The notes beneath the pieces were generated by a model. That model ran no database searches. It was not told where the DNA came from and saw only the letters and a list, made by a program, of their open reading frames with translations. Shown piece by piece: positions 18,493 to 30,990 of a stretch of 32,633 nucleotides of DNA. The position numbers were made by a program, and so were the translations under genes. Origin of the DNA: Methanomicrobiales archaeon (GTDB lineage Archaea > Halobacteriota > Methanomicrobia > Methanomicrobiales > Methanospirillaceae); the NCBI GenBank assembly GCA_025360805.1, contig JANYBK010000097.1, positions 1 through 32,633 on the forward strand, read 5' to 3'. How positions within the stretch are numbered: position 1 is the stretch's first letter; each line of letters opens with the position of its first letter.

Positions 18493-18729
18493 ATGGTTGA
18501 AGCATTCCTCACCTCCCCTTTGTTTGCCCTTGTGGTGCTGCCGTTCATGATCTTCTGCGCCCGCATCTGCGATGTGACGCTCGGCACTATCCGGGTCATC
18601 TTCATCTCCAAAGGGATCAAGTACCTTGCTCCCATCATTGGTTTTTTTGAAGTGATCATCTGGCTGCTCGCAATTGGGCAGGTGATGAACAACTTAACCA
18701 ACATCGTTGCATATATTTCCTATTCCTGA
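18493..18729 (+). pseudogene. UPF0316 (DUF5698-type) membrane protein, 3' part missing
   Basis: The frame encodes 78 residues of the N-terminal membrane domain of the UPF0316/DUF2179 family (FCARICDVTLGTIRVIFISK, then FFEVIIWLLAIGQVMNNLTN). Family members are usually about 170-190 residues and continue after AYISY with a C-terminal DUF2179 domain. Here the reading frame ends at TGA (18727-18729) two codons after ISY. That stop lies inside the left terminal repeat of the neighbouring IS1634-type element (TIR 18717-18733), so the gene is truncated by the insertion. The missing part is not found on the far side of the element. Confidence 0.75.
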
Positions 18730-20832
18730 CCCCTATCATGAAATGTCGATAATTATGGAATCCAATCCCATCAAACGACAGGGTGTAAATTAACTCACGT
18801 CCAAATTTTTCCAAGAACCATTCAAATCATAACACTTGTGGATAAACACAATTAGAAACCGACAGCCAGAGCTCAGCATAGCACTCAAATAATCGGATGA
18901 AAGATCAGAGCGCGGCAGGATCAAAATCAACGAGATATAAGATCTGTTCCAGCTGCGCACGTCTTTCTGGCATTTTACTCCGTATTGAAACTGCGTCTCC
19001 ATTGGAAACGAACTCAAACAGAGCAAGAATATTAAGCATCGTATCAGACTTCGGTCGAACCAGCGGTCGGTTCTCCGGACCGAGGCGGGGCGGGTCCTCA
19101 CAGTCAGCAATCCGAGAGCGGGATATCAGTTGCAAGAGCCCGTGCATCAGGACACTAAAATACAAAAGCGTCATCATCGCTTCAATCCGCTCCGGCTTCT
19201 CCAGGAACAGAGTTGACGCAAGTAACGGTTCCTTGAGCACACTGAAATTATGTTCAACTTTCTGTTGACCCTTGTACTTCAGCAGAACATCCCGGCTATC
19301 GATGGTAGCCGTGTCAACATTCGTCAAAAGAATAAATGATTCGTCTTTCTGGCGTTGTTTTTCGATAAGAACTTCATCCGGAAGGATCTCTTCTGCGCTG
19401 ACAGCCCAAGTCACCGTTTGGATTTTTGGTTTTGGAGGGTCTGACGGTCTGCCCACCGGACTCTTTTCTGTGACTGTAGCAGTACACGATAAATTTACGT
19501 CAAAGAAAGATTTTTTATGGGAGTTCCGGAATGCTTTCAATTCTGTGCGTGCATCCGGTTCACAGGCAAATTGTTTTCCGGTTAACTCTTTGAGCTCTAA
19601 CTCGAAAACTGCACGCTCCTTTTTGAGTTTTTCTTGTAGTTTGCGCTCTGTATCACCACTTTTGTAGATGTGAGCCCAGACCGGGATATCAAATACTTCC
19701 CGTTGATACGTCTGAACCCAATATTCAGGTTCTGCACCATTCCCTGCCGGATATTCGCAGCATATGCCCAGATGGCGCCAGTCCTGATCTTCATATGCCA
19801 GTTTCCGGATCCTGCCTGCCAGTTTGTTGTTGAAATTTTCGGGTATACGGGATATGATCTTTACCGGTTTGGCAGTATCCGATATGACTGTCAGGTTCTT
19901 TTTTGTCAGTAATTTGCTGTCCGCAATGTAGAAGTATCGATGAAATTCGTCGCCATAGACTTCCTGCAGAGTTTTTAACATCATGTGGTTATACTCACAA
20001 TCGGCAGTATTTCCATCAAGGACGTGACAGACTCGGATCAGACCGTCTCCATCGGTTACCATTCCAGTCATGATCTGTTTGAGATCCTTCCGCTTGTCCT
20101 TACTTAATCCATATATTATCCGGATACGGAACGGTTCTGTCGTTGTTTCTGTAGATTCATAATCCCCATACATGACGTGAGAGGTGGTGTCTGAGTGAAG
20201 CGTATAGTCCGGGGGCAGAGCAAAGATCGTGCGGACTGTGAGGGCAATGGAACTGAAAAAAAATTCACATCCGGCTTCCCAGAGCCGGTCCAGCATGGCA
20301 GCAAATAGTTCGTCTGATAATCCGGCTGGATCAATTGGTTCACCGACTAGTAGTTCAAGGTCCATTCCGGCATATGCCAGATGAATACGGCTTAATGCGG
20401 TTTTTTTATTCGCTGGGATGAACGCCGCGAGCACCAGTAACTGGGCTAATATTCCCGGGCTGAATTTCCATTGGGTCGGGTCCCACCGGACTTTCTGGTT
20501 GACACTATCGATAAAATTGAGCCGGTTCAGATACGTTGCAATGACGATAAGTGATGCCGGTGTCCTGAGGGCTGTGTCTTCTGCACTTTTGACGATCTGT
20601 TCCAACTGGTGCCGGAGAGTATTCATTTTCCTTGGGGATGCCGGACCACGGAATTTCTTTCGGGTTACAGGATGCTTGGAAGAAGTCATTCTGCATATAT
20701 AATATTGTTTTCTGAAATATAAATCTAAGTTTTTTAGAGTGTGTTACGGCACATCTCCGACGTTTTACTTAGGAATAAAACTGACACCGCAGAAATTATC
20801 TCTATTTTTTTGGGGGGGGTCAGGAATAGGAA
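18717..20832 (-). mobile_element. IS1634-type insertion sequence
   Basis: The element carries one intact transposase gene (18905-20689, minus strand). A perfect 17-bp inverted repeat, TTCCTATTCCTGACCCC at 18717-18733, has its exact reverse complement at 20816-20832. A second match, GATAATT, lies 14-15 bases further in at each end, so the TIR is a longer imperfect one. A match of 17 bases over 2 kb is unlikely by chance. I see no clear target duplication; IS1634 itself is known for variable and sometimes very long duplications. The right end lies 71 bases before a MITE-like element, and the left end truncates the UPF0316 gene. Confidence 0.7.
18905..20689 (-). CDS. IS1634-family transposase (IS4 superfamily)
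   Basis: A full-length 594-residue DDE transposase. The first catalytic Asp is probably in TLHSDTTSHVMYGDYE (about 164-179). A second conserved region is YIADSKLLTKKN (the family D-S-K). The C-terminal Y-(2)-R-(3)-E-(6)-K-type block appears as YKGQQKVEHNFSVLK with flanking LFLEKPERIEAMMTLLYFSV. It should cut and join the ends of the element around it. No frameshift or early stop is visible, so the element may be active. Start MTSSKHPVTRKKFRG. Confidence 0.93.
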   Translation of the reverse strand: MTSSKHPVTRKKFRGPASPRKMNTLRHQLEQIVKSAEDTALRTPASLIVIATYLNRLNFIDSVNQKVRWDPTQWKFSPGILAQLLVLAAFIPANKKTALSRIHLAYAGMDLELLVGEPIDPAGLSDELFAAMLDRLWEAGCEFFFSSIALTVRTIFALPPDYTLHSDTTSHVMYGDYESTETTTEPFRIRIIYGLSKDKRKDLKQIMTGMVTDGDGLIRVCHVLDGNTADCEYNHMMLKTLQEVYGDEFHRYFYIADSKLLTKKNLTVISDTAKPVKIISRIPENFNNKLAGRIRKLAYEDQDWRHLGICCEYPAGNGAEPEYWVQTYQREVFDIPVWAHIYKSGDTERKLQEKLKKERAVFELELKELTGKQFACEPDARTELKAFRNSHKKSFFDVNLSCTATVTEKSPVGRPSDPPKPKIQTVTWAVSAEEILPDEVLIEKQRQKDESFILLTNVDTATIDSRDVLLKYKGQQKVEHNFSVLKEPLLASTLFLEKPERIEAMMTLLYFSVLMHGLLQLISRSRIADCEDPPRLGPENRPLVRPKSDTMLNILALFEFVSNGDAVSIRSKMPERRAQLEQILYLVDFDPAAL

Positions 20833-20903
20833 TTGGACTAACAATGAGATCATCCCATTCAGGATATTATCTTAGCCGATCTTTGGACACAATCAAAAAA
20901 TTA
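20833..20903. other. Remnant DNA between the two mobile elements
   Basis: About 70 bases lie between the IS1634-type TIR and the MITE-like element. One plus-strand frame is open across it (translating to GLTMRSSHSGYYLSRSLDTI), continuing into the MITE. I cannot assign it to a family, and it does not look like the missing end of the UPF0316 gene. Confidence 0.3.
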
Positions 20904-21180
20904 GGGTATAGTCCCATTCTAGCGACTAAAAATTTCATGTTTGTTGAATGAAGATTGCTCATTCAGACGCTCCTGGGGACTTCGCCATTGGCTCGTCCCC
21001 GCCGCTGTGGCGTCCCCAAATTGCGATAGAACGGATACCTTCATCAAATTCTGAATTCACATTACTTTACATCAAGGATTCACTTTTTTGAAAACAATTC
21101 TGGTTATATGATTATCGCATTTTTTCCGTCGCATATTTTAAAAAAGTTAGTGGTTAAAATGACACTATACCCAAAAATTA
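20896..21180. mobile_element. MITE-like non-autonomous element with 8-bp target duplication
   Basis: The element is 269 bp (20904-21172), bounded by an imperfect 26-bp inverted repeat. The left end begins GGGTATAGTCCCATT (20904-20918). The right end, read on the other strand, begins GGGTATAGTGTCATT (21172-21158). Both continue with similar spacing to ACTAA. It is flanked by a perfect 8-bp direct repeat AAAAATTA (20896-20903 and 21173-21180). It contains no gene but several hairpins (20945-20965; TGGGGAC at 20974-20980 with GTCCCCA at 21012-21018). An 8-bp duplication suits the IS256 family or another DDE group. Its right copy abuts the stop codon of the PKD protein (21181-21183). Confidence 0.72.
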
Positions 21181-23448
21181 TTATTTTCTGTGAGCAATCA
21201 CGATCGCAAGCAGACCCATGACAGAGCCAACAATGGCCACTATGGGTGACATCGAAGCTTTTGTGGGGATTGGTGCAATGGTTGTTACAGTTGTCTTAAC
21301 GATCGTTGGGGCTTGTGTGACAACAACAGTCGGCTGAACTGTCGGTGCTACTGTCTCTACTGCTGAACCGGTCTTGTATGCGGTATCGCTTCCATAATTA
21401 TTGGAAACGGTTAACCTGACATCATATGCTCCTTCCTGAGGGTAGAGATGGCGTGGGTTCTGTTCGGAAGATGTTGTTCCGTCACCAAACTGCCAGCTCC
21501 ATGAAGTCGGGTTGTTGGTTGAGAGATCTTTGAACTGGACAATGAATGGTGCCTTGCCTAATCGCTGGTCTACCATAAAGCTAGCCACTGGCGCCATGGT
21601 TGTTACAATATATCCTTCCTTTGAGGTGGTGTCCTTTCCGTTGGTATTAGATACGGTCAGGGTAACGGTATAGGATCCCAGTGCTGTATAGGTATGAGAC
21701 GGATTTTTCATTGGTGATGTTGTACCATCGCCAAAGTCCCAGTTCCATGATGTGGGCTCACCAAGAGATTTATCAGTGAACTGGACAGTCATGGGTGCGC
21801 CGCCCCGGGTCTTGTCTGCGACAAAGTCGGAACGCGGGATGTTGAGAACTGTGATATACTGATTCTTTGTCCGGCTGTTTGTGACTGCCGGGTTAGATGC
21901 GGTCAGTGTTACATCATATACACCGGTTTTCTGGTAAACATGGTCGGGTTTTGATCCGGTACCTAAAGAACCGTCACCAAATTCCCAGACCCAGTCGGTG
22001 GGTGAATTTGATGAGAGATCGGTAAATGTAACGAATCTTCCTACACCAACCGTTGTTTTGTCTGCTGTAAAGTCAACCGCAGGACCTTTACCGACATTGA
22101 TGATATCGGTCATCACTTTAGTATCTTGCCCGAATTTATTTTGAACAGTAAGGGTGACCGTATATGTGCCTTCTTTCATATACGTGTGGGCGGGATTCTG
22201 CTCAGTTGATGTTTGTCCGTCTCCAAAATTCCATAGCCATGAGGTTGGCAGGCCTGTGGACTGGTCCACGAACCTTACACTCATTGGAACCTTGTTCATT
22301 TCGAAGGGGACTATGACCGGCCTGAAGTCGGCTTTAGGCCCAACGCCAACATTGATGTAGTTGGTTTTGATCTCTGTATCTTTGCCATTGTTATTGCTTG
22401 CAGTCAGGGAAACGGTATATATTCCTTTCAGCTGGTATGCGTATGTCGGATTCTGAGTGGTCACTGTTTTTGTGTCCCCAAAGTCCCACGACCACTGATT
22501 CGGTGAGTTTGTGGATTTATCGGTAAAGGAAACCATTTCCCCAACATTTACTGATAATGGAGCACCGACAAAATCAGCAGCCGGGACGCCACCCACATTG
22601 ACTACCTGTGTTGAAGTGGCAGTAGTTGTATCACGTGCAACCTCAAGTTTTACATCGAACGCACCAGCGCTGGTGAAAGTATGGGTCGGATTTTGTACAG
22701 TGGAAGTCGTACCATCTCCGAAATTCCAGTTCCATGAAGTGGGAGATCCAATAGAGCGGTCAGTAAATTTTACTAATAGTGGCGCTTTTCCAGTGCTGGG
22801 GTCGGCAATAAACTTAGATGTAAGTGGGCCGACAACTGTAATTAAGTTGTATTTTGTTGCATCTGAGGATCCATAATCATTGGATACTGTCAGAATCACA
22901 TTGTACACTCCGGCAGTCCAATATGTGTGTACGGGATCTTTTTCATTCGATCTTTTTCCGTCACCAAAGTCCCATTGCCATGTTGCAACCTGACCTTGTG
23001 ATTTGTCTGTGAATTGCACGGATAACGGTACATTGCCGCTTGAGGGGGTTGCAGCAAAGTCCGCTTTGGGTCCCATCCCGATTGAAATATAATCCTTCTT
23101 AATCTCTGTACTGGAACCGAACTGGTTTGTCACGGTAAGTTTTACGGTGTACATACCACGCAGGGTATACATATGCGAGGGGTTCTGTTCAGTTGATGTG
23201 GAACCATCTCCAAAATCCCACTGGTATGTCATAGGTGTCGAACCCATTGAATTGTCAACAAACATTACCTTTGTCGGCACCGTGGCAAATGCGTAGTGAG
23301 CGTCGAATTGCGCTATTGGTGCAACGCCAACGACAATGTAGCCGGGCTGATTTGCACTTGCAGCAGTCACAACAGGTACCATAAGAGCGAGAAGCAGGAC
23401 AAGTATTCCTGCAGATAAAATACAAGTGTTTCGTGTCATAATGATCAC
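21181..23448 (-). CDS. Surface protein with eight PKD domains
   Basis: The 755-residue product has a signal peptide (about 1-29), then eight consecutive PKD repeats of about 80-85 residues. Each carries a version of W-x-W-D/N-F-G-D followed by H-x-Y and a Gly/Thr-rich beta pattern (for example TWQWDFGDG and SWNWNFGDGTTSTVQNPTHTF). A Thr/Pro-rich linker (about 695-725) leads to one C-terminal membrane span and a short basic tail (IAHRK). It is a typical methanogen surface or adhesion protein; PKD arrays in other archaea form S-layer-associated or cell-contact structures. ATG 23448 lies 26 bases after a TATA box, and M4 (23439) is an alternative. A MITE-like element sits directly after the stop codon. 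Confidence 0.93.
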   Translation of the reverse strand: MIIMTRNTCILSAGILVLLLALMVPVVTAASANQPGYIVVGVAPIAQFDAHYAFATVPTKVMFVDNSMGSTPMTYQWDFGDGSTSTEQNPSHMYTLRGMYTVKLTVTNQFGSSTEIKKDYISIGMGPKADFAATPSSGNVPLSVQFTDKSQGQVATWQWDFGDGKRSNEKDPVHTYWTAGVYNVILTVSNDYGSSDATKYNLITVVGPLTSKFIADPSTGKAPLLVKFTDRSIGSPTSWNWNFGDGTTSTVQNPTHTFTSAGAFDVKLEVARDTTTATSTQVVNVGGVPAADFVGAPLSVNVGEMVSFTDKSTNSPNQWSWDFGDTKTVTTQNPTYAYQLKGIYTVSLTASNNNGKDTEIKTNYINVGVGPKADFRPVIVPFEMNKVPMSVRFVDQSTGLPTSWLWNFGDGQTSTEQNPAHTYMKEGTYTVTLTVQNKFGQDTKVMTDIINVGKGPAVDFTADKTTVGVGRFVTFTDLSSNSPTDWVWEFGDGSLGTGSKPDHVYQKTGVYDVTLTASNPAVTNSRTKNQYITVLNIPRSDFVADKTRGGAPMTVQFTDKSLGEPTSWNWDFGDGTTSPMKNPSHTYTALGSYTVTLTVSNTNGKDTTSKEGYIVTTMAPVASFMVDQRLGKAPFIVQFKDLSTNNPTSWSWQFGDGTTSSEQNPRHLYPQEGAYDVRLTVSNNYGSDTAYKTGSAVETVAPTVQPTVVVTQAPTIVKTTVTTIAPIPTKASMSPIVAIVGSVMGLLAIVIAHRK

Positions 23449-23481: not shown

Positions 23482-23612
23482 CTACGTCTTAATCAGTTCA
23501 GTCATTTCTATAATTGAATACGCTTTATATTGCACAAAGATAGTGTAAACAATTTGCTGTAAAAACAAAAACGCCCTGATCTCTAATCATGCAACAAAAG
23601 GAGACCAGAGCA

Positions 23613-24821
23613 ATGGAACTTAATGACTTAATCCAAGATTATCTTGGCGATAAGGATGAGGGTCTGAAATCCCTTGTCACTTTTTTTCTGAACCTTGTAA
23701 TGCAGTATGAATCAGAACAGCAGTCTGGAGCAAAACGATATGAACGAACGAAGGATCGAGTTGCTCATAGAAATGGTAGTAAACCGAGAACGTTGCTAAC
23801 GAAACTTGGAACGTTAACACTAACCAAACCAGAATTTAGGGAGAAATCATTTGAAACCGTAGTATTTGAAAAATATAGTCGTGTAGAAAAAGCACTCATC
23901 AATGCAATTCTTGAATCGTATATCCAGGGAGTATCAACCCGAAAGGTTCGCCATATCATGGAAGAATTCGGAGTCACGGGTATTTCGGCAGAGACGGTAT
24001 CCCACATGGGAAAAGCACTTGATGAAAAAGTGAATGAGTTTCTCAATCGTCCGATTGAACAGCCGGTTGTTTACCTTATTGTTGATGCGGTGTACGTTAA
24101 AGTCCGGCATCAGAGCAGATATGTGAGCCAGGCGATATTGATTATAGCCGGTATCCGGGAGGATGGATATCGGGAGATCCTTGGGATTCGTGTAGCCGAT
24201 TGCGAAGATGAGGGTTTTTGGTTTTCACTTTTTGAAGATCTCAAGTTACGGGGATTACGAGGGGTCCAACTGGTAATATCCGATGGGCATAAAGGAATAC
24301 AACAAGCAGTAAAAACCACATTCCTTGGTGCGAGTTGGCAAATGTGCCAGGTCCATTTCCTTCGCGCGATTCTCCGTAATATCCCAAATAAACGTAAATC
24401 TGAAGTAATTTCGTTGGTGAACTCTGCGTTGCACGGATATGAAGTTGGTTTACCGGAGGTAGCGGATAAACTCGAACGTATGGGGTTTCATAAGGCCGCA
24501 GATACGGTCGAGTTGTTTATGCTGGATGTTGGAAACTATCGTGCTTTTCCGAAGGCCCATTGGAAACGGATCCGGACAACGAACATGGTTGAACGAGTGA
24601 ATGCTGAGATTAAACGAAGAACTAAAGTAGTAGCTGCATTCCCAAGTCGTGAATCGCTCATGCGTCTCATCGGTTCGATTCTCATTGACCTGAATGAAGA
24701 ATGGGTTACCGGATACCGATATCTCAATATGGCGGAATTCCTCGATGAACGAAGTTCTGAGGCAGAGTTTGTAGTTTGTACCTCTCCGGAACTTCCTGTT
24801 GTATCGATTGCGGATCTCTAA
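23613..24821 (+). CDS. IS256-family (MULE) transposase
   Basis: A complete transposase of 402 residues from the ATG at 23613, where AAAAGGAG (23596-23603) lies 9 bases upstream. An ATG at 23589 would add eight residues. The DDE triad is visible: D158 (YLIVDAVYVKV), D224 (LVISDGHKG) and E327 (TNMVERVNAEIKRRTK), with the C/H residues MCQVHFLR between. Length and motifs are normal for the family. It moves the surrounding element and probably uses a circular intermediate, as other IS256 members do. Confidence 0.95.
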   Translation: MELNDLIQDYLGDKDEGLKSLVTFFLNLVMQYESEQQSGAKRYERTKDRVAHRNGSKPRTLLTKLGTLTLTKPEFREKSFETVVFEKYSRVEKALINAILESYIQGVSTRKVRHIMEEFGVTGISAETVSHMGKALDEKVNEFLNRPIEQPVVYLIVDAVYVKVRHQSRYVSQAILIIAGIREDGYREILGIRVADCEDEGFWFSLFEDLKLRGLRGVQLVISDGHKGIQQAVKTTFLGASWQMCQVHFLRAILRNIPNKRKSEVISLVNSALHGYEVGLPEVADKLERMGFHKAADTVELFMLDVGNYRAFPKAHWKRIRTTNMVERVNAEIKRRTKVVAAFPSRESLMRLIGSILIDLNEEWVTGYRYLNMAEFLDERSSEAEFVVCTSPELPVVSIADL

Positions 24822-24841
24822 CTTTATTCGATAATCAGTTC

Positions 24842-24863
24842 GGGGGATGGACAAGCATCCCCC
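24842..24863 (+). terminator. Hairpin after the IS256 transposase gene
   Basis: GGGGGATG, a 6-base loop, then CATCCCCC form a perfect 8-bp stem (24842-24849 and 24856-24863), 20 bases after the stop codon. No T-run follows, so it may stabilise or regulate the transcript rather than terminate it. Confidence 0.4.
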
Positions 24864-25005
24864 TCACAATGGAGGGATTGCTCCCAAGGTTGTTTAGTAG
24901 CGAAGCTGGCTCATTGCTTCTTACCGATTCGATGGATTTATGTTGCGCCGATAGGATACATTTGATCTGTTTAGAGTCAGGGTTGTCTAATTTACAGTTG
25001 AATCT

Positions 25006-25584
25006 TTACACTACCAATATTTTTGCAATTTGAGGGTTTTTTTGTTGAATCTTATAACGCTCTAAAAAAAAGAGCCCTTCATATATTAAGAACCCAAAAT
25101 ATCCTAAAAACGCAGAAACTATACCAGAGAATCCGGCAAATTCTGGTCCACCGATTATGTTAAAAATTATCAAACTGACGCCAGAAATCGAAAATGGAAA
25201 AACAATAAAAAATAGTATTAACGATCGATAAAATCCATCCTCAATCCTATCATTCTCAGTCGGGAATAACCAAAATGTTTCTATAATGAAAATCGAAACA
25301 ACCAGAATTAAATACACTTCGATATTGTTCAGGCAATGTGTCCAATCAATGTGTGTGTAATTCGAAAGAAAAAGACTAGGAATACTCGGGTTTGTGGTAT
25401 TTGTATAAAATAATAAACGCGAAGTATCTGGTAATATCGTACCTGAATTGATACCGTTAATAAAAACCTGAACCGCGATCAAAAAAATTGGAACCACAAA
25501 AAACAGGGATATCCAGACAATAAACCATAATTTTGATCTATTTTGTAATTGATTGACGATCTTTTCGAAAAATATTGATTTCAT
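25006..25584 (-). pseudogene. Rhomboid-like membrane protease, truncated by IS256
   Basis: The frame encodes an AT-rich membrane protein of about 192 residues from the ATG at 25584, which has GGATGATG (25597-25590) 5 bases upstream; ATG 25599 and TTG 25602 are alternatives. It resembles rhomboid proteases: SNYTHIDWTHCLNN matches the H-x(4)-H-x-x-N element, and AGFSGIVSAFLGYFGF resembles the GxSG catalytic-serine segment. The membrane helix that should carry the catalytic His after it is absent. The coding sequence runs into the IS256 right TIR (ends 25015), and the last codons TTG GTA GTG TAA are supplied by the element. The protein is thus probably inactive. Confidence 0.6.
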
Positions 25585-26211: not shown

Positions 26212-27765
26212 ATGAGCAAAGTATTCAGTTTTACATATATCAGCCTGGCCGCTGTCATGTTCATTGCCATTGGCATCATCGTTGCCGGTTGCATCTCAGC
26301 AAATCAGGGAAATCCTGTCCCAACTACACCAACCCCGGCAGAAGCCCGTGTAATCGCCAAAGAAGCCTATATCTACGGCTTCCCGATGGTGGACAATTAC
26401 CGCATCGAGTACTCCTATTTCGTGAATACCACAGATCCCGCCCATAAGGCGGCGTGGAACCAGATTGAAAGCACGGCCCGCGTTTACACGCCGGATGACA
26501 CGACCGTTCAGACTCCAAACTCGGACACACCGTACTCAATGCTTGGCATGGATTTGCGTACCGAACCCCTCGTGCTCACCGTGCCTCCGATGGATGACGG
26601 GCGCTATTTCAGCGTCCAGCTCGTCGACGCCTACACCTACAACTTTGCCTATATCGGGAGCCGCGCCACCGGCAATGACGGCGGCACCTTCATGATTGCC
26701 GGACCGGACTGGCAGGGCCCGGTCCTTCCCGGGGTGAAGCAGGTATTCCGCTCCGAGACCAACCTGGTACTCGCCGTGTACCGCACCCAGCTCTTCAACG
26801 CGAGCGATATCGATAACGTGAAGAAGATCCAGGCCGGTTACAAAGTACAGCCGCTCTCGACATTCCGCGGCTCCCCGGCACCCACGGCTGCGCCAGCGAT
26901 TCATTTTATCCAGCCGCTCTCGCGCGATGCAGAGAAGACCGATCCGGAGTTTTTCAACGAACTGAATTTTGTCCTGCAGTTCTGCCAGCCGCCAAACCCG
27001 TCGGAGAAAACCCTTCTGGCGAATTTCTCCCGGATCGGCGTCGGTGCAGGGAAACACTTTGACTTTACCAACCTCTCGCCGGAAATGCAGACCGCCGTCA
27101 AGCAGGGAATGGCCGACGCCTGGGTCGAATTTGATAATTTGGAAACGACCGGGATCGATACGGGGAATCCGAATGCAGGCGATTTTTTTGGCACGCGGGA
27201 GTACCTGAACGGCAATTACCTCTACCGCATGGCCGGCGCAGTGCTTGGGATCTATGGGAATTCGAAAGAGGAGACATTGTATCCGCTCTATACTATTGAC
27301 TCTGGAGGGCAGGCACTAAGCGGGGCCAGCAATTACACCCTCCGGTTTGCGCCGGGGCAACTCCCTCCTGTCAACGCATTCTGGTCGCTGACCATGTATC
27401 AGCTGCCGGAGAGCCTGCTGGTGGAAAATCCCATCGACCGCTACCTGATCAACTCGCCGATGGTACCGCAGCTGAAGACCGACGCCGACGGCGGGATCAC
27501 GCTGTATATCCGGCACGCATCTCCCGGCACGGATCGGGAATCGAACTGGCTGCCCGCCCCGGATGGGCCGTTCGATATGTCCCTGCGCCTTTACTGGCCG
27601 AAACAGGAAACACTCAACGGTACGTGGAAACAGCCACCGCTGCTCCGGGTGTCATAAGAGAAACGAGAATTCCTTTTTTCCCTTCCCGTGTGTTGCATGG
27701 ATCCCGCTTCATGTATCCTCACCGGTTCCGGGGTTTTCATGCCCGATTTCCCACGAATCCGGCCG
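26031..27765 (+). repeat. Segmental duplication, copy 1 (DUF1254 unit)
   Basis: The stretch from TATCTCGCA (26031) through the DUF1254 gene and about 110 bases after it matches 29268 to about 30990. The homology covers non-coding DNA at both ends (such as the 20 identical bases at 26048-26067 and the shared TGTGTTGC and ATTTCCCAC after the gene). The two copies therefore arose by duplication of a whole unit and not merely from related genes. Confidence 0.75.
26212..27657 (+). CDS. DUF1254/DUF1214 lipoprotein, intact copy
   Basis: The 481-residue product has a membrane-targeting start with a lipobox (IIVAGC, Cys at about 27) and a Pro/Thr linker. A DUF1254 domain follows (about 45-190; EAYIYGFPMVDNYR, VQTPNSDTPYSMLGMDLR, PPMDDGRYFSVQLVDAYTYN), then a DUF1214 domain near the C-terminus (about 350-470; PPVNAFWSLTMY, YLINSP, WLPAPDGPFDMSLRLYWP). 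The biochemical role of the family is unknown. It should be exported and anchored at the outer face of the membrane. It has a second, broken copy 1.8 kb downstream, with an MFS transporter between them. Confidence 0.9.
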   Translation: MSKVFSFTYISLAAVMFIAIGIIVAGCISANQGNPVPTTPTPAEARVIAKEAYIYGFPMVDNYRIEYSYFVNTTDPAHKAAWNQIESTARVYTPDDTTVQTPNSDTPYSMLGMDLRTEPLVLTVPPMDDGRYFSVQLVDAYTYNFAYIGSRATGNDGGTFMIAGPDWQGPVLPGVKQVFRSETNLVLAVYRTQLFNASDIDNVKKIQAGYKVQPLSTFRGSPAPTAAPAIHFIQPLSRDAEKTDPEFFNELNFVLQFCQPPNPSEKTLLANFSRIGVGAGKHFDFTNLSPEMQTAVKQGMADAWVEFDNLETTGIDTGNPNAGDFFGTREYLNGNYLYRMAGAVLGIYGNSKEETLYPLYTIDSGGQALSGASNYTLRFAPGQLPPVNAFWSLTMYQLPESLLVENPIDRYLINSPMVPQLKTDADGGITLYIRHASPGTDRESNWLPAPDGPFDMSLRLYWPKQETLNGTWKQPPLLRVS

Positions 27766-27778
27766 CCCCGTTGCCGTT

Positions 27779-29232
27779 TCAGAACCCGGCCATGGCCGCG
27801 TCCTCCTCTTCTTGCCCTCCGGTCTCCTTCCTGCCCTCCTTCCGGTCCCGTGCAAGGAAACCGAAGAGGAGAGCCGGCAGGGCGACGAGGACGGCGGCGG
27901 CGAACGTGGCATGGTAGCCGGTCCGCATTAGTTCCTCCGTGAGCCGCGGGAGGATGGGCGTCCCATCATTCGGGAGGCCGGCGCCGTAGACCGCTCCTTC
28001 TAAGATGAGGACGAAGAGCGCGATCCCGACGGTATAGGCTGCGTTCCGGCTGGTCTGCATGATCCCGGATGCGGCTCCCTCCCGGCCCGGGGGGCTGTGA
28101 TCGAGAATGAGTTTGGAGGACGGGGACGAGTAGATCGAGAAGCTGATCCGGAAGAGGACGATGAGCAGGATACCTGCATAGGGCATCTCCCCGTTCACCA
28201 GGGTGAGCCCGCCAAGAGTGATGAGCGTGAGGAGCGATGCGGCAATGCAGAGCGGACGCGACCCGAAACGGTCGGCAAGATGCCCGGCAACCGGTGAGAT
28301 AAGGATCGCAAAGCCGGCCGCTGCCATCAGGATGAGGCCGGAGGCTGATACGGACAGGCCAAGGCCCTGCGTGAGGATGAACGGAATGAGGAACGTGATC
28401 CCGCCGAGCGTAATATCCATGATCGTCTTTCCGATCATGGCGAAGGAGAACTGGCGGTTCTTAAAAAGGGCGATGTCCAGGACCGGCCCGGACGTGCGCC
28501 GGGCATGCAGGATGAACGCACCCCAGAAGAGGAACGAGAGGAGGTACAGGGAATGCGGTATCAGGTCGGATACCGCCGGCTGGTAGTCCAGCGAGAGACC
28601 GGTAAGAAGGGTTGTCATGGCTGAGAAGAGGAGGACGGACCCGGCGATATCGAAGGAGGATCCTGAGGGTTGCGCGGGGATCTCGGGGATATATCGCTTC
28701 CCGATCAGGAACGCGGCAAGACCTGAGAGGAGCATCAGAAGAAAGAGTGCTCTCCACCCGAAGGTGCCGCTGATGATACCGCCGATGCCGACCCCGGCAA
28801 CGGACCCGGCCAGGGACGCTGCACCGATCCAGGAGAGCCCGGCTCCCCGTTCCGAGAGCGGGAGCCCGGCAGCGACCAGTGCCAGTCCCGTTGCAATGAA
28901 CATTGCAGCGCCGGCTGCCTGAGGAAGCGGCCGGCAATCAGGACGGAGATGTCCCCGGCAGAGAAGCAGAGGACCGATGCGGCCGAGAAGAGAAGGAGCC
29001 CCTCGAGGAATATCCGTTTCAGGCCATGGATGTCCGCGATCCTCCCGATAATGATGCTGAACCCGGCAATGATGAGCAGGTACCCGCTGATGACCCACGA
29101 GACCGTGCTCAGGGTGGCATGGAGATCTGCGGCGATCAGGGGGATGGCGATGTTGACGCTTGCAAGACCGGCCGTGCCAAGGAATCCCGCGAGGGCAAGG
29201 GCAGTGAGGGCAAGGCGGTCTTTCTGGATCAT
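27779..29232 (-). pseudogene. MFS drug/proton antiporter (DHA2-like), frameshifted
   Basis: The N-terminal part (from MIQKDRLALTALALAGFLG at 29232) and the C-terminal part (AAGAAMFIATGLALVAAGLP onward) are in different frames. They join at about 28920-28922, where TTC CT|CAG GCA implies the loss of one base: homologous order would read RFLQAAGAAMF. The total span of 1,454 bases becomes 485 codons if one base is restored, giving a normal full-length 12-14-span MFS protein. Motif A-like GRIADIHGLKR is present. The gene faces leftward between the DUF1254 copies and its upstream region is the shared duplicated DNA. A sequencing error is possible, otherwise the gene is broken. Confidence 0.75.
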
Positions 29233-29267: not shown

Positions 29268-30990
29268 TATCTCGCAATTTGCAGCCCATCACTTCTGATA
29301 TCACTGTTTTAAAAATAGGTTGGGGGTAGTAAGCAGGTTTTTTCTGTTTTGTAAATCGTGCAGAAATCCGGATTCTTCCCTCGAAATTTAAAAAAAAAGT
29401 GCTCGTAAAGTTTAATATCCCAAAGGGGAATTTGTAAATTAGAGGGCATAATGAACAAAGGATTAAAATTAACGTATTTCAGCCTGGCCGCTGTCATGTT
29501 CATTGTCATTGGCATTATCGTTGCCGGTTGCATCTCAACAAGTCAGGGAACACCTACCCCAGACACACTGACCCCGGCAGAAGTCCGCGCAATCGCCAAA
29601 TAAGCCTACATATACGGCTTCCCGATGGTGGACAACTACCGCATTGAGCACTCCTATTTCGTGAATACCACAGATCCCACCCATAAAGTGGGGTGGAACC
29701 AGATCGAAAGCACGGCCCAGGTTTACACGCCGGATGACACGACCGTCCAGACACCAAACTCGGATACACCTTACTCAATGCTTGGCATGGATTTGCGTAC
29801 CGAACCCCTCGTGCTCACCGTGCCTCCGATGGATGACGGGCGCTATTTCAGCGTCCAGCTCATCGATGCCTACACCTTCAACTTTGCCTATATCGGAAGC
29901 CGCACCACCGGCAATGACGGCGGCAGCTTCATGACTGCCGGGCCGGACTGGCAAGGTCCGATTCCTCCCAGGGTGAAGCAGGTGATCCGCCCGGAGACCA
30001 ATCTGGTAATCGCCGTCTACCGCACCCAGCTCTTCAACGCGAGCGATATTGATAATGTAAAGAAGATCCAGGCCGGTTATAAAGTACAGCCGCTCTCGGC
30101 GTTTCTCGGTAACCCTGCACCCCCTGCTGCGCCGGCGATTCATTTTATCAGGCCGCTGACGCCCGATGCGGAGAGAACCGATCCGGAGTTTTTTGACGAG
30201 CTGAATTTTGTCCTGCAGTTCTGCCAGCCGGCAAACCCGTCCGAGAAAGACCTTATGGCGAATTTCTCCAGGATCGGCGTCGGTACAGGCAGGAACTTTG
30301 ACTTTAACAACCTATCGCCGGAAATGCAGACCGCTGTCACGCAGGGAATGGCCGACGCCTGGGTCGAATTTGGTAATTTCAAAACAACCGAGATCGATAC
30401 GGGGAATCGTACTGCAGGCGACTTTTTTGGCACGCGGGAGTATCTGAATGGCAATTACCTCTACCGCATGGCCGGCGCTGTGCTCGGGATCTATGGGAAT
30501 TCAAAAGAGGAAGCGTTGTATCCACTCTATACGGTTGACTCTGAAGGGCAGGCACTGAGCGGGGCCAGCAATTACACCCTCCGGTTTGGGCCGGGCCAAC
30601 TGCCGCCTGTCAACGCATTCTGGTCGCTGACCATGTATAAAATGCCGCAGAGCCAGCTGGTGGCTAATCCCATCAACCGCTACCTGATCAACTCGCCGAT
30701 GTTGCCGCAGTTGAAAACCGACGCCGATAGCGGGATCACGCTCTCTATCCAGCACGAATCCCCCGGCGCTGACCTGGAATCGAATTGGCTGCCCGCCCCG
30801 GATGGGCCGTTCGTTATGTCCATGCGCCTTTACTGGCCGAAACAAGAAGCGCTCAACGGTACGTGGAAACAGCCACCGCTGCTACGGGTGTCATAGGAGA
30901 AACGAAAAATCTTAATTTACCCTCCTGTGTGTTGCCTGATGGATCCATTTTCATTCTTCCTCATCAATTCTTTAGTTTTTAATCCAATTT
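29268..30990 (+). repeat. Segmental duplication, copy 2 (DUF1254 unit)
   Basis: This copy matches 26031-27765, including upstream CCCATCACTTCTGATATCAC (29285-29304), AATCCGGATT (29365-29374) and the flanking 3' DNA, although with point differences and small gaps. The upstream part also forms the promoter region of the MFS gene, which faces the other way. Confidence 0.75.
29451..30896 (+). pseudogene. DUF1254/DUF1214 lipoprotein, copy with a nonsense codon
   Basis: The reading frame starts at the ATG at 29451 (MNKGLKLTYFSLAAVMFIVI, lipobox VAGC) and aligns with copy 1 from end to end. Codon 51 is TAA (29601-29603) where copy 1 has GAA, a single G to T change. After it, 431 codons remain open with no frameshift, and the amino-acid sequence keeps the DUF1254 and DUF1214 motifs (TPNSDTPYSMLGMDLR, NAFWSLTMY, APDGPFVMSMRLYWP). 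The stop therefore looks recent, or is an error. An internal start such as ATG 29625 would lose the signal peptide. Confidence 0.8.

Follow-up and report, generated by a model that had tools for sequence, protein, structure and literature searches.

What is the 269-bp block that lies directly behind a PKD-domain protein gene in this archaeal genome, and if it is mobile, which transposase moves it? The block is bounded by inverted ends and by a short perfect direct repeat, and we analyzed it within the window (the whole 32,633-nt stretch of DNA) and across 199 genomes, the host (G000; 2.5 Mb, 253 contigs, 88% complete) included. The 269-bp element is almost certainly a mini-transposon (MITE) of the IS1595 family that was moved by an IS1595-type transposase supplied in trans and inserted behind the PKD stop codon. 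The initial annotation had read the block as MITE-like, and this reading held up: relatives carry further copies, a full element is bounded by the same ends, and the insert is missing at the end of orthologous PKD genes. Coordinates are collected in Table 1.

Table 1. Features at the insertion site, by position in the window
Feature	Coordinates	Strand	Remarks
Non-autonomous mini-transposon (MITE), almost certainly of IS1595 type	20904..21172	.	269 bp; 16 full-length copies; no ORF of at least 80 aa
Left target-site duplication AAAAATTA	20896..20903	.	Read directly; perfect 8 bp
Right target-site duplication AAAAATTA	21173..21180	.	Directly after PKD stop codon, in 3' A/T tract of gene; T-tract there in relatives
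Left terminal inverted repeat	20904..20929	+	Corresponds to end downstream of transposase in IS1595 relatives; first 27 bases equal 857-bp IS end in L056
Right terminal inverted repeat	21147..21172	-	Corresponds to end upstream of transposase; 28/28 to G042 contigs 42 and 19; 96% to 853-bp IS ends in L063, L065
Internal structured module, two GC-rich hairpins, common to other MITE families	20966..21027	.	Most conserved interior part; compensatory changes; in IS5-ended MITEs
Host PKD-domain protein gene	21181..23448	-	755 aa, 8 PKD_4 domains, intact; last 460 bp including stop codon 76-81% identical to relatives (DNA)

Structure of the element and its target site

The inverted ends of the element, GGGTATAGTCCCATTCTAGCGACTAA and GGGTATAGTGTCATTTTAACCACTAA, are 26 bp long and identical at 21 positions, and AAAAATTA is repeated perfectly on either side. 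The initial annotation had described a gene-less 269-bp block with imperfect inverted ends, an 8-bp duplication and several hairpins, and all of these features are present in the sequence; no ORF of at least 80 aa was found inside the element. An 8-mer scan of the window returned 1221 identical pairs spaced 150 to 1500 bp apart, and only the AAAAATTA pair encloses ends that match at 16 or more of 26 positions. The RNA fold energy of the element was 3.3 to 4.3 SD below that of shuffled sequences (two strands), partly because the ends pair with each other.

The stop codon of the PKD gene (TAA at 21183-21181, minus strand) lies immediately next to the right copy of AAAAATTA. Insertion had been placed one base before this stop codon with the gene left unbroken. 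The gene is indeed intact, with a reading frame that relatives match up to the stop codon, while the position has to be corrected, as the element proper starts 8 bp after the stop. The orthologous loci that the initial annotation proposed to compare were found in three relatives (L156, L157 and L158), which carry the gene end without the insert; a T-tract, with no insert, comes after the stop codon in G021 (TAATTTCTTTTTTTC), G007 (TAATCACTTTTTTTT) and G014 (TAATCTTTTTTTA). Homology between the host and these relatives ends soon after the stop and the DNA beyond it is not alignable, so that the comparison establishes absence of the insert at the gene end and supports one side of the empty site, not both.

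Other mobile DNA lies close by. An IS1634-family element (18717-20832) with a 594-aa transposase (18905-20689, minus strand) has perfect 17-bp inverted ends (TTCCTATTCCTGACCCC) and lacks a clear target duplication; 63 bp separate its right end from the left AAAAATTA copy. An IS256-family element (approximately 23539-25015; transposase 23589-24821) lies upstream of the PKD gene, which is therefore flanked by insertion elements on both sides. Further along the window, two genes for DUF1254/DUF1214 proteins (26212-27657 and 29625-30896) have an MFS transporter gene (27779-29098) between them.

Copies in the host and its relatives

Matches to the element were present in 62 of the 199 genomes, and exact matches in named genomes fell in Methanoregula, Methanospirillum, Methanoregulaceae and other Methanomicrobiales. 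Outside the host, full-length matches occurred in five congeneric genomes (the genus is apparently Methanoregula). A deeper search of seven genomes brought the full-length copies, the window copy included, to 16 in six genomes (250-272 bp, 64-97% pairwise identity), which supplies the other copies that the initial annotation had suggested looking for. The element is repeated at several loci in G025 (six copies), G035 (four) and G027 (three) and is single in G014, G031 and the host. No second copy was found in the host genome, where the match at L003 is of a 3-mismatch type that is equally frequent with a control pattern. A degenerate pattern of the ends was found in 38 of 108 genomes of the family; the reversed control pattern had zero hits in the genomes listed. 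A search of the literature on Methanomicrobiales MITEs and on Methanoregula repeats found nothing directly relevant.

Complete IS1595 elements with the same ends

The full element with matching ends, also proposed as a check, exists in relatives. Five elements (L056, L063, L065, L072 and L135), all complete and 853-858 bp long, have the same ends, and each encodes a protein of 260-262 aa. The left end of the window element is identical to that of the L056 IS at 27 of 27 positions, and the right end matches the G042 contigs at 28 of 28 and the L063 and L065 IS at 96%. The likeness is limited to the ends: homology stops within 27-52 bp, and the interior of the element is not derived from the IS.

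The three partner proteins that were scanned (L056, L063 and L072) scored 150-159 bits (cut-off 75; E 1e-43 to 2e-46) against the NCBIfam IS1595 transposase model NF033547 and 113-122 bits (cut-off 27; E 1e-32 to 2e-35) against Pfam DDE_Tnp_IS1595. Zinc-ribbon cysteines (CPxC...CSxC) are present in all five, the Pfam Zn_ribbon_IS1595 match in L063 falling just under the cut-off (21.1 vs 25.4 bits), and an alignment of the partner transposases shows the motifs VDETY, CSD and HINGLEGFW. The family features of the element and its partners agree with the published description, in which IS1595 elements make 8-bp duplications and have an N-terminal zinc finger outside the IS1016 group, and the termini of their Merlin relatives are GG (PMC8101967).

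The host itself has two IS1595-type genes. One (L075) is intact and lacks these ends, and was rejected as the host parent. The other (L076) is a truncated fragment; it shares 68-78% identity with the partner transposases and has a related end that differs by 8 mismatches. The host assembly (88% complete, 253 contigs) yielded no intact IS1595 partner transposase, and we infer that none is present in the unassembled portion of approximately 12% either. Because the host has a single copy and only a truncated fragment of the subgroup's transposase, the element is probably stranded in this genome. The single copy gives no sign of recent movement in the host lineage.

Mobility and the sites where copies land

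The window element and those of relatives gave 40 end-bounded elements in which flanking duplications could be counted. Perfect duplications of 7-9 bp flanked 23 of the 40, compared to a mean of 1.5 and a maximum of 7 when flanks were mispaired (2000 trials). Fifteen of these were 7 bp and eight were 8 bp long, the latter against a mean of 0.5 with mispaired flanks.

The flanks of the end-bounded elements are 93% A+T. When ORFs were called at 35 loci, 15 stops and 1 start lay no more than 60 bp from a copy. A preference for landing behind stops was rejected, as 13 such insertions were observed and 10.9 expected from A/T-rich sites between genes at these loci (p 0.22). Avoidance of the 60 bp before start codons was significant by the same control (0 observed, 5.3 expected, p 0.001). 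The simplest reading of this pattern is that copies insert into A/T-rich DNA between genes and that those which disturb promoters are then lost.

An interior module common to MITEs of two transposase families

Conservation in the interior peaks in a module of two GC-rich hairpins. Mean pairwise identity was 0.84 at element positions 63-128, compared to 0.70-0.73 in the rest of the interior and 0.84-0.86 at the ends. In 44 copies of the module, 89% of the cells in the hairpins were paired and no more than 60% when the pairing was slid. Compensatory changes, almost all of them located in the first hairpin and its inner stem, gave 25 both-side cells versus 10.5 in shuffles. Relatedness inflates this count, so that few of the events are independent. 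A long-range alternative pairing (5' GGGGAC with the second CCCC tract) showed no covariation and was discarded.

A version of the module also lies inside MITEs of 216-478 bp with the ends TGCTCTGTAGAAA, many of which hold a second GC-rich block that is common to a subfamily of IS1595 MITEs of approximately 300 bp. The TGCTCTGTAGAAA ends match those of a 998-bp element in the host (L172; contig 176, 349-1346) that has an 8-bp duplication and encodes an IS5-family transposase (NF033579, 190 bits). The detectable match between the window element and the IS5-ended MITEs is short (approximately 36 bp, E 1e-6). The module is inside both IS1595- and IS5-ended MITEs, so that mini-transposons belonging to two transposase families have an interior in common. 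In G016, TGCTCTGTAGAAA ends numbered 144, compared to 2 for the reversed control. This 2.2-Mb genome of the same genus holds a large second MITE family with 8-bp duplications (e.g., L101, L106 and L173-L180). One locus on its contig 4 (L096) is an apparent chimera, in which the left half of an IS1595-type MITE and the right half of an IS5-ended repeat are joined across the module, and this suggests recombination between the two families.

The orientation of the module relative to the ends is one way in the 269-bp subfamily and the opposite way in the ~300-bp IS1595 subfamily. Tentatively, the module of ~62 nt might be a selected or selfish cassette that was taken up, in both orientations among the IS1595 MITEs, by mini-transposons of two or more unrelated transposases (IS1595 and IS5) and kept by selection on its structure, e.g., as a putative RNA, or a site where a host factor binds, that promotes spread or tolerance. 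We regard this as less likely than not. Less probable still, the module could be a third, independently mobile palindromic element (REP/IS200-like) nested inside the MITEs. Its opposite orientations, its presence inside IS5-ended MITEs, the copies with neither end type nearby and the tandem copies at L073 are all consistent with such an element, yet its position is fixed within each MITE subfamily, not scattered, and the copies without ends may be decayed MITEs. The L073 array (1000-1800; G058 contig 163) consists of tandem units of ~165-180 bp, each with a version of the module, and most of the units also carry a GGTATAG-type string that resembles a MITE end.

Alternative origins of the element

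The folding of the 269 bp and their position directly behind a gene would suit a functional, immobile host element of the PKD gene, such as a terminator, a regulatory RNA or a protein-binding array, as would the conservation and compensatory changes of the central module. However, orthologous PKD genes lack the element, copies elsewhere adjoin other genes and have flanking duplications of their own, and neither the element nor the module loci exceeded a family threshold in Rfam, which also removes a known RNA family as a candidate. Such a host element in place of a mobile one is very improbable. We dismiss virtually outright an origin of the MITE by deletion within the nearby IS256-type element (2.4 kb away), the family link that the initial annotation had suggested: the two elements share a region and a TAGTGT-like string in their ends, but the ends of the neighbor (GATAGTGTAAACAATTTGC / GGTAGTGTAAAGATTCAAC) are not of the GGGTATAGT type and have no match past this string, while IS1595 elements match at 27 of 27 and 28 of 28 positions.

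Proposed course of the insertion

For the IS1595 MITE favored here, we infer mobilization in trans and the following order of events. A full IS of ~855 bp with the same end type would supply the transposase, which would bind the 26-bp ends and move the 269-bp element. Insertion would then have been into an A/T-rich 8-bp target, the T-tract right after the PKD stop codon, and repair of the gaps would have duplicated AAAAATTA. The element, which encodes nothing, would rely on that transposase.

The assignment places in IS1595 a repeat of Methanoregula-type methanogens that had been without a family, and points to the transposase most likely to move such repeats. The element is of an ordinary mobile kind, and the shared interior module is the part that merits more work. 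That interior suggests that the interiors of MITEs can pass between unrelated transposase systems, of which we know of no documented case in archaea.

Comparison with known systems

With the IS1595 family (DDE_Tnp_IS1595; relatives of eukaryotic Merlin) the window element shares the ends and the 8-bp duplication seen in the ~855-bp partner elements, and it differs from an IS of this family in having no transposase gene. The IS5-ended MITEs of the same genus (TGCTCTGTAGAAA, 216-478 bp) have the internal hairpin module in common with it, but their ends are unrelated and belong to a different transposase family (IS5, NF033579). A comparable system is the ISHwa6-related MITE of Haloquadratum walsbyi, which is 165 bp long, is present in 7 copies and has a 25-bp inverted repeat and an 8-bp direct repeat (PMC3852290). 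Both are archaeal, non-autonomous and of the IS1595 family, with ends of ~25 bp and an 8-bp target duplication, a likeness drawn from the published description of the H. walsbyi element. While that element belongs to Halobacteria, the window element is found in Methanomicrobiales, is longer (269 bp) and contains a GC-rich internal module.
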